In this document: piece after piece, positions 8,111-9,531 of the stretch
Layout: each line of letters begins with the position of its first letter
Numbering within the stretch: the stretch's first letter is position 1
Source: Acidiphilium iwatense
GTDB taxonomy: Bacteria; Pseudomonadota; Alphaproteobacteria; Acetobacterales; Acetobacteraceae
NCBI RefSeq assembly: GCF_021556475.1
Contig: NZ_JAKGBZ010000027.1
Location: forward strand, 1-48,081
Length of the DNA: 48,081 nucleotides
Direction: 5' to 3'
Notes under the pieces: generated by a model
The model's input: the letters and a program-made list of their open reading frames with translations, nothing else
What the model was told of the DNA's origin: nothing
Database searches by the model: none
Position numbers and translations under genes: made by a program

Positions 8111-8470
8111 ATGGGCTTGTTCGATCAGGTTTCCGGAATGGTCAGCGGCGCGCTCGGCGGCGGCTCGGGCGGTGTCGCCGGTCAGTTGATGGGCGTGCTC
8201 CAGCAGAACGGGATTTCCGGTGTTTCAGGGCTGGTGCAGCAATTCGAGCAGAACGGCCTGGGTGCGCATGTCGCGTCCTGGGTGGGCAGCGGAGAGAATC
8301 TGCCGATTTCGGCCGATCAGGTCCAGCAGGTGCTCGGCAGCCCGGTGATCGCCTCGATCGCGCAGAAATTCGGCGTCGATCCGCAGACGGCGGCGCAGCT
8401 CATCGCGCAGCATCTGCCGGCGGCGGTGGATCAGGCGACGCCGGGCGGCGCCGTGGCGGACGCGTCGTAA
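8111..8470 (+). CDS. YidB family (DUF937) protein
   Basis: This 119-residue protein is rich in Gly, Gln and Ala and matches YidB/DUF937: an MGLFDQVSGMVSG start, repeated hydrophobic turns, and VGSGENLPISADQVQQVLG followed by an AQKFGVDPQTAAQLIAQHLP helix. The function of the family is not established. The ATG at 8111 follows a GGAGG at 8101. An ATG at 8099 is also in frame but is less likely because it overlaps that ribosome-binding site. Confidence 0.88.
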   Translation: MGLFDQVSGMVSGALGGGSGGVAGQLMGVLQQNGISGVSGLVQQFEQNGLGAHVASWVGSGENLPISADQVQQVLGSPVIASIAQKFGVDPQTAAQLIAQHLPAAVDQATPGGAVADAS

Positions 8471-8474
8471 ATCC

Positions 8475-9029
8475 GTGACGGGGTTCAGAATTCTCGGTAT
8501 CTGCGGCAGCCTGCGCCGTGGGTCGTTCAATCTGGCGGCGCTGCGCGCGGCGGTTGATCTGGCGCCCGAGGGGATTTCGCTCGAGATCGCCTTGATCGGC
8601 GAGATTCCGCTGTTCAACGACGATGTCCGCGCCGTCGGCATTCCGGCGCCGGTCATCGAACTGGCGGGGCGGATCGTGGCGGCGGATGCGGTGCTGATCG
8701 CCACGCCGGAGTATAATTATTCGATCCCCGGCGTGCTGAAAAACGCGATCGACTGGGTGTCGCGCTGCGATCCGCAGCCGTTTCGCGACAAGGCGGTGGC
8801 GATCATGGGCGCGAGCCCCGGCGCGATCGGCACGGCGCGCGCCCAATACGATCTGCGCAAGGTGTTCGTGTTTCTGGATGCTCATGTGATGAACAAGCCG
8901 GAGATCATGATCAGCGCGGCGGGGCAGCGTTTCGACGGCGCAGGGGTGCTGACCGACGCGGCGACGCGCCAGCTCATCGGCCAGCAGCTCGCGGGGCTGC
9001 GGGATTGGGCGATGCGGTTGCGTAGCTGA
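8475..9029 (+). CDS. NADPH-dependent FMN reductase
   Basis: This 184-residue flavodoxin-fold enzyme belongs to the NAD(P)H:quinone/chromate/azo-reductase group. The FMN phosphate loop GSLRRGSFN is near residues 11-19, and PEYNYSIPGVLKNAIDWVS near 76-94 is the family signature. Such enzymes transfer hydride from NAD(P)H via FMN to quinones or other acceptors in the cytosol. A GTG start lies 4 nt after the YidB stop, so the two genes probably share a transcript. The physiological acceptor cannot be read from sequence. Confidence 0.9.
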   Translation: MTGFRILGICGSLRRGSFNLAALRAAVDLAPEGISLEIALIGEIPLFNDDVRAVGIPAPVIELAGRIVAADAVLIATPEYNYSIPGVLKNAIDWVSRCDPQPFRDKAVAIMGASPGAIGTARAQYDLRKVFVFLDAHVMNKPEIMISAAGQRFDGAGVLTDAATRQLIGQQLAGLRDWAMRLRS

Positions 9030-9032
9030 TCC

Positions 9033-9069
9033 AAAAAGATCGCCCGAACCGGGCTTCGGTTCGGGCGAT
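9033..9069 (-). terminator. Intrinsic terminator inside the ArfA-like frame
   Basis: A perfect 12-bp stem (9039-9050 with 9058-9069) with a 7-nt loop is followed on the minus strand by CTTTTT. It spans codons 47-57 of the ArfA-like frame. Being 9 nt past the FMN reductase stop codon, it can also serve as that gene's 3' hairpin on the plus strand, where the exit tract is weaker. Confidence 0.85.
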
Positions 9070-9209
9070 TTCAGCGGCAGTTTATGTTTGGCGCGGCGAT
9101 CCCAGCGATCCGCCTTTCGCGCGCGTTCGGCACGAGATTTCGTGTGCCTGGCGCGATAGAGCGGATTGGTCAGGAGGTCGCGCGCCATGGGATTGCGTTT
9201 GCGCGCCAT
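9033..9209 (-). CDS. arfA: ArfA-like ribosome-rescue factor, gene without a stop codon
   Basis: ArfA recruits RF2 to ribosomes stalled at the end of mRNAs lacking a stop codon. From the ATG at 9209 the frame gives about 59 residues, starting MARKRNPMARDLLTNPLYRA and then strongly basic. The NP-x5-LL-x-NPLYRAR block aligns with the E. coli ArfA block N-A-I-E-A-LL-HDPLFRQR. An AAGGAG ribosome-binding site lies 6-7 nt before the ATG. No stop codon occurs before the hairpin and T5 tract at 9069-9033, and the frame then runs on into the opposite-strand FMN reductase. E. coli arfA is known to be truncated the same way by a hairpin inside its coding region. The name rests on a short motif and on this architecture, and I know the family mainly from gamma- and betaproteobacteria. 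Confidence 0.65.
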
Positions 9210-9239
9210 GGCGGTCTCCTTTCGCGAGAGACCGCCATG
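9207..9239 (-). promoter_or_regulatory. Hairpin sequestering the ArfA-like start codon
   Basis: CATGGCGGTCTC (9207-9218) and GAGACCGCCATG (9228-9239) form a perfect 12-bp inverted repeat with a 9-nt loop. In the minus-strand mRNA the 3' arm contains the start codon and most of the GGAG ribosome-binding site, so folding would hide both. It could also be a DNA palindrome bound by a protein. Confidence 0.6.
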
Positions 9240-9241
9240 AT

Positions 9242-9531
9242 ATCATAAATCGATGCGAAAGCGGAGCCCTTCGGCGCCGCCATGGGAGTCGGGCTTGCGG
9301 AACCGCTCCACCAGCACGCCGCCATTGTTCAAAATGACGCGCTGCGAGGCAATGTTATCGGGATCGGTGCTAATTTCGACGAAATGGAGGCCCTGCGCGG
9401 CGGCTTCGGGTAACATGAGAGCGACGGCGCGCGTCGCCCAGGGCGGTGCTGGTCGAATAGCCAGCTTCCAGCGCCGCGCGGAATTCCGCCAGATCGGCGA
9501 GAGCGGGCTTGCGGAGGGAGCAGACAGTCAT
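9242..9531 (-). pseudogene. GNAT N-acetyltransferase remnant with internal deletion
   Basis: The first 30 or so codons (TVCSLRKPALADLAEFRAAL) match the N-terminus of a GNAT acetyltransferase. The last 60 or so codons, in another frame, read ALMLPEAAAQGLHFVEIST, DPDNIASQRVILNNGGVLVE and end GLRFRIDL, which is the acetyl-CoA-binding C-terminal half. The middle of the domain, roughly 80-90 codons, is missing, and the join near 9430 shifts the frame. The start codon overlaps the nicotinate phosphoribosyltransferase stop (ATGA), so the intact ancestor was translationally coupled to it. Confidence 0.8.

Follow-up and report, generated by a model that had tools for sequence, protein, structure and literature searches.

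ArfB (YaeJ) is the usual back-up rescue factor of the Alphaproteobacteria. An alternative is arfA of E. coli, which provides the analogy for a gene with a nonstop message and a tagged, degraded product (PMC3989581, PMC8012679). A similar logic has been described for brfA in Bacillus subtilis, where a rho-independent terminator inside the coding region gives rise to a nonstop message that is repressed by trans-translation (PMC6881298). According to the survey data of one paper, arfA is present in 0 of 2,376 Alphaproteobacteria and is restricted to gamma- and some betaproteobacteria as well as ten species of the Bacillus subtilis group (PMC11633108); another describes it as 'not present' in Alphaproteobacteria (PMC10070815). 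Phage-borne ArfA is already known in print, as pelagiphage HTVC027P and phage RXM are described as carrying an annotated ArfA (PMC12753301, PMC8953757).

Here we analysed a 48,081-nucleotide stretch of DNA from the 4.16 Mb genome of Acidiphilium iwatense (hereafter the window). We propose, with a probability of roughly 0.77, that it contains a gene for a divergent, nonstop-encoded ArfA-like back-up rescue peptide that recruits RF2 and occupies the place of ArfB. We found no report of this Acetobacteraceae gene in the literature covered, which consisted of open-licence papers.

The frame and its internal hairpin

The ArfA-like nonstop coding frame lies on the minus strand (9033..9209) and comprises 59 codons from the ATG (9209-9207) to a T tract; it is supported by the sequence and by protein-type selection in codons 1-46. 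An AAGGAG ribosome-binding site, read from the sequence (9216..9221, minus strand), precedes the start at a spacing of six bases. Translation from ATG 9209 gives MARKRNPMARDLLTNPLYRARHTKSRAERARKADRWDRRAKHKLPLKSPEPKPGSGDLF, a short peptide rich in K and R that lacks a GGQ motif. Direct reading confirmed the two basic elements of the original prediction, namely a well-started frame and the lack of any stop codon ahead of the hairpin. The frame has 269 open codons up to an in-frame stop at 8400; openness over about 15 GC-rich codons is not significant alone. Beyond the T tract, it runs antisense to a convergent gene for an NADPH-dependent FMN reductase (PF03358; 8475..9029, plus strand), to which read-through from the ArfA-like gene would be antisense as well, and we think that this extension is not made as a rule.

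Codons 47-57 form a hairpin (9039..9069, minus strand), a predicted terminator or nuclease site supported by its fold, by pairing in relatives and by few synonymous changes. It has 13 perfect pairs (9069-9039) and a loop of 5, and is followed by CTTTTT (9038-9033), that is, one C and a T5 tract (9033..9037, minus strand) which was identified from the sequence and a terminator scan and at which the 3' end of the message would be expected. The original prediction had placed a perfect 12-bp hairpin and a T5 tract at codons 47-59; both are there, with a stem of 13 bp instead of 12. The RNA fold of the region reaches -32.1 kcal/mol (z -3.56), and only 1 of 200 shuffles was as good. Perfect stems of at least 11 bp (loop 3-9) are rare in the 48 kb, with only 5 distinct cases, two of which flank this gene, one at either end. 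The scan of the region for terminator-like sites returned 4, three of which correspond to this hairpin, where shuffles would give 2.7, so that the match to a terminator consensus is not significant alone and the weight of the hairpin evidence comes from the stem length and the relatives. The dispersed-repeat test of the hairpin covered the 48-kb window.

At the other end of the gene, stem search and folds revealed a perfect 12-bp inverted repeat (9207..9239, minus strand) in which the start codon and some of the AAGGAG are base-paired. It folds at -27.6 kcal/mol and lies directly after the stop of the upstream frame. Perfect stems across the start are no longer than 2-6 bp in 7 other loci, although several folds there show a mostly paired start codon. 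From its sequence, the repeat is a possible second control element that might mask the start or couple translation. The upstream frame itself (9243-9531) is acetyltransferase-looking and falls into two pieces in different frames, which looks like a frameshift or a sequencing error; neither piece matched Pfam.

Related loci in the Acetobacteraceae

A profile search of 397 Acetobacteraceae genomes returned 13 matches at E<=1e-3, of which we judged 11 to be real: six in g1 (the genus of the window), four in g63 and one in g316. The other two were dropped as spurious, L024 having a stop inside and L025 having no ArfA pattern. A broader profile built without the window-family sequences found five genomes at E<=1e-3, namely three g59 genomes with more canonical ArfA-like peptides, G005 with its window-family gene (E 4e-4), and a fifth whose frame (L177) was judged spurious; it did not reach the window gene at this threshold.

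We examined 14 loci of the family, 12 from the 11 genomes (G517 has two) and two from further contigs (L030, L033). The contig of L033 ends before the hairpin, which leaves 13 loci for the comparison of hairpin and stop. In seven of these (G000, G011, G001, G010, G074, G574, L030) the frame is intact and the hairpin occupies the corresponding position, and in all seven the frame is open from its start through the hairpin, with no stop before it. In five of these intact loci, the stops beyond the hairpin fall at differing codons (64, 72, 81, 87, 269), and the hairpin of G011 has no proper T tract. A further three loci retain the hairpin with a damaged N-terminal part (G433, frameshifted near the start, and both truncated G517 copies), and the last three (G005, G002, G392) end at an ordinary stop and lack such a hairpin. 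The comparison of orthologous loci suggested by the original prediction is therefore favourable for the seven intact hairpin loci and unfavourable for the three hairpin-less relatives, whose ordinary stops indicate that the nonstop design is not universal in the family.

We compared synonymous and nonsynonymous differences in seven loci, with G002, G392, G433, both G517 copies, L030 and L033 omitted because they were divergent, frameshifted, cut short or not included. When the window is paired with three genomes of its genus (G011, G001 and G010), pS is 0.55-0.69 and pN 0.10-0.20 in codons 1-46, and pS is 0.00-0.15 in codons 47-57, on only 8-9 synonymous sites. The hairpin pS of the other three pairs of these four genomes is 0.12-0.23 (for G001-G010, 0.23 against 0.31 in codons 1-46), and that of g1-g63 pairs 0.21-0.54. 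These values indicate protein-level selection up to about residue 46 and to RNA-level constraint on the hairpin, at least within g1.

Pairing in the hairpin was examined in an alignment of nine of the ten hairpin loci, without G574, whose loop is one base longer, and without the hairpin-less loci. Standard pairs fill 96.6% of the pair cells, against at most 47% in slid controls. Stem pairs 9 and 13 have changed on both sides (A-U and G-C). The covariation score was reached by 1 of 500 shuffles and an equal number of doubly changed pairs by 148 of 500, and the doubly changed pairs rest mainly on one split, that between g1 and g63.

Likeness to ArfA and the rescue systems of the genome

The window peptide matched no Pfam or NCBIfam model. 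With PF03889 (curated cut-off 25.5 bits), hmmscan with filters on gave no ArfA match at E<=10 for this peptide or for 8 relatives, and by Pfam's criterion the gene is not an ArfA member. When a profile of eight relatives was searched against 177,635 PDB sequences, the six matches at E<=10 were all ArfA, at E-values that are weak alone (0.37-0.64), and no BrfA chains were among them. In profile-profile comparison by hhalign, the score was 26.4 (P 3.8e-5) with a set of ten ArfA loci that belong to other classes of the phylum, the best of 300 column shuffles reaching 16.4, and against seven alphaproteobacterial ArfA-like sequences (one below the Pfam cut-off) it was 26.8, with a best shuffle of 17.1. 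Over three targets, P was 2.6e-5 to 4.7e-5 and for each of them none of the 300 shuffles reached the score.

The predicted alignment sets L12, P16, L17 and Y18 opposite E. coli Leu19, Pro23, Leu24 and Phe25. The first three are invariant in all eight members, and Y18 is F in one. In the structural account of E. coli ArfA, Leu19, Leu24 and Phe25 bind Trp319 of RF2 and Pro23 packs on A1492/A1493 (PMC5378476). The originally predicted ArfA similarity exceeds composition by profile comparison, although the PF03889 search of the peptide gave no match. The gene is ArfA-like and most likely homologous to ArfA; the label 'ArfA' should better be read as 'divergent ArfA-like', with a function that we infer.

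Against the published absence, PF03889 exceeded its cut-off in 6 of 289 alphaproteobacterial genomes. Three of these loci have an ordinary stop (L008, L009, L011). The open frames of L010, L012 and L013 contain a hairpin ahead of the stop (z -2.96, -2.81 and -1.88, respectively).

As regards other rescue systems, the genome encodes an alpha-type tmRNA, SmpB and two class-I release-factor hits, and no ArfB over the cut-off. The original prediction had named ArfB, not ArfA, as the factor to be expected in an alphaproteobacterium. In the family, 294 of the 397 genomes have an ArfB match at E<=1e-20, and 293 have one over the cut-off. ArfB was found in none of the 14 judged carriers (11 of the window family and three in g59) vs 294 of the 383 other genomes (Fisher 3e-9; 2e-7 for the 11 window-family carriers, again with none), a count that becomes 3 of 17 if the genomes of the rejected L024, L025 and L177, which all have ArfB, are counted as carriers. 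Within g1, ArfB occurs in 0 of 6 carriers vs 3 of 7 other genomes (p 0.19), and some carrier genomes are incomplete (G002 78%, G574 86%, G005 and G010 88%). Because the carriers fall into four genera, and given the within-g1 value and the incomplete genomes, kinship explains part of this difference.

About 89 of the 397 genomes lack both ArfB and a detected ArfA-like gene. Four genomes in g1 (G004, G008, G009, G012) have no ArfB over the cut-off and no detectable ArfA-like gene. When 11 genomes lacking ArfA-like hits were searched at E<=10, the matches were weak, and the seven translated out of 15 looked unrelated.

Viral relatives, alternative readings and known systems

Viral contigs were scanned as well and yielded 175 relatives, of which the best 80 were kept. 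These loci (48 distinct members) and the window family have KRNPxARDL in common (P 1.4e-10; 0 of 150 shuffles), a P that is inflated because the viral set was picked with KRNPxA patterns. The PF03889 result on viral members is unaffected by this choice: two of six tested exceed the cut-off of 25.5 bits, at 38.6 and 36.6, and form a bridge to ArfA. Other members match DUF7230 weakly or nothing. The small viral peptides of L132, L136 and the other IMG/VR loci of L092-L171 may be ArfA-like, to judge by sequence. For viral members the DUF7230 matches are below the cut-off, and for the window family there is none.

By scan, 3 of the 80 viral loci (two distinct peptides) have an in-frame terminator, and the other 77 showed none. 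L083/L092 (IMG/VR 3300017777), L093 and L094 encode a viral ArfA-like peptide whose open frame contains a hairpin and T tract, with a fold z of -5.21; these loci could be a phage version of the nonstop design. Using tblastn, neither the window peptide against phages and plasmids nor one alphaproteobacterial ArfA against phages gave a match.

Five g63 copies of the gene (L074-L078) are located at 98-117 bp from the 3' end of a tRNA gene (tRNA-Lys, -Ala or -Thr), and some are decayed (3 of the 5 g63 copies of the family search). In L077, the 30-base end of the tRNA-Thr gene recurs at a distance of 8,761 bp; an integrase is close to the distant repeat, a primase-like gene lies between the two repeats, and next to the tRNA, at the end of the element, there is an ArfA-like remnant truncated at its N-terminus.

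In the explanation that we favour, the frame would encode an ArfA-like rescue peptide of about 58 residues. Transcription would stop at the in-frame hairpin and T tract, or a nuclease would cut the hairpin, leaving a message with no stop codon. As long as trans-translation works, tmRNA-SmpB would take the ribosomes at the message end and the peptide would be tagged and destroyed; once trans-translation is overloaded or lost, untagged peptide would be released and would recruit RF2 to stalled ribosomes, filling the back-up place held by ArfB in most relatives. Termination at the hairpin, tagging, RF2 dependence and rescue activity are proposed here on the analogy of E. coli arfA and, for the nonstop message and its tagging, of brfA. 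The fail-safe nonstop logic of the original prediction has gained support from the open frame with its hairpin, from the seven of seven intact hairpin loci and from the ArfA similarity, its function being putative.

It could be argued that the gene encodes a real small protein and that the hairpin is merely a two-way terminator shared with the FMN reductase gene, most transcripts being read to the distant stop. The reductase stop at 9029 and the T tract are 4 bases apart, no stop interrupts the frame before 8400, and G011 has kept the hairpin, with hardly any T tract, together with the convergent reductase. Yet the hairpin is also kept where the neighbour differs, with an amino-acid permease gene after it in G010 and tRNA genes beyond it in g63, the longer T run in the window is on the ArfA-like strand, and the stops after the hairpin are scattered over codons 64-269, all of which makes this reading unlikely. 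A purely convergent likeness to ArfA, in which a small basic RNA-binding peptide of other use happens to have a terminator in its frame, would fit the missing PF03889 match, the short K/R-rich sequence and the PDB E-values of 0.37-0.64. We consider it very improbable, since composition-keeping column shuffles reached the score in 0 of 300 cases for each of the three targets, the PDB search returned only ArfA chains and ArfB is present in 0 of the 14 judged carriers.

The mobile copies raise another alternative, that this is a gene of a phage or mobile element, for the element's own use (for example, freeing ribosomes in infection), which has recently settled in the chromosome. It would account for the five g63 copies near tRNA 3' ends, one of them at the end of an integrase element with the 30-base tRNA repeat, for the 175 relatives in viral contigs and for the annotated ArfA of HTVC027P and RXM (PMC12753301, PMC8953757). 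However, the scan detected an in-frame terminator in only 3 of the 80 viral loci. A shared neighbour speaks for vertical descent: in G000, G011 and G001 the gene adjoins the same QRPTase-like gene, which scores under the Pfam cut-off in each genome and is 76% identical between G000 and G001. We find such a recent settlement quite unlikely, and a mobile origin is in any case compatible with the nonstop back-up explanation. More tentatively, and with some doubt, we can imagine that phages and tRNA-integrating elements have spread a separate lineage of ArfA, which replaced ArfB in some Alphaproteobacteria, the nonstop self-switch having been kept or having re-arisen, even on a phage (L083).

If this separate-lineage reading is true, the switch logic is used more widely than the known ArfA family. 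A divergent ArfA missed by standard models, in genomes without ArfB, would show back-up rescue factors replacing one another, and surveys with one profile would undercount them. The locus also offers a small testable system, with a hairpin, a missing stop and a clear prediction for tmRNA.

Among known systems, phrog_20887 and DUF7230 (PF23876) have a KRNPxAxxL..P.Y..R block in common with the window family and are shorter. Six of eight window-family members matched phrog_20887 at E<=0.1 (best 0.0012). In the genome of the window, the one match of phrog_20887 at E<=1 is the ArfA-like gene (E 0.024), a result to which we give little weight as 4 of 14 control genomes also match. HTVC027P and Citromicrobium phage RXM are likewise phages of Alphaproteobacteria; their ArfA is likened by annotation, and the passages describing it mention no nonstop design (PMC12753301, PMC8953757). 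With BrfA, reported from a subset of Bacillaceae, the gene would have in common the in-frame terminator design, as far as the published description goes (PMC6881298). ArfB has the same presumed back-up role for trans-translation, but is an unrelated protein with its own GGQ motif.

The closest counterpart is ArfA (YhdL in E. coli, PF03889), also a small basic peptide with an L..x-P-L-[FY]-R block and an aromatic-x-R-[KR]-x-K-H end. The KGKGSY core that precedes the basic tail of ArfA is absent here, and the linker is four residues longer and ends in DRW or DHW. Both genes lie tail to tail with their neighbour, which is mscL for E. coli arfA (overlapping by 4 bases) and the FMN reductase gene here, in a different host class. 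As in the window gene, the frame contains a hairpin ahead of its stop in 15 of 19 scanned ArfA loci from other classes of the phylum.
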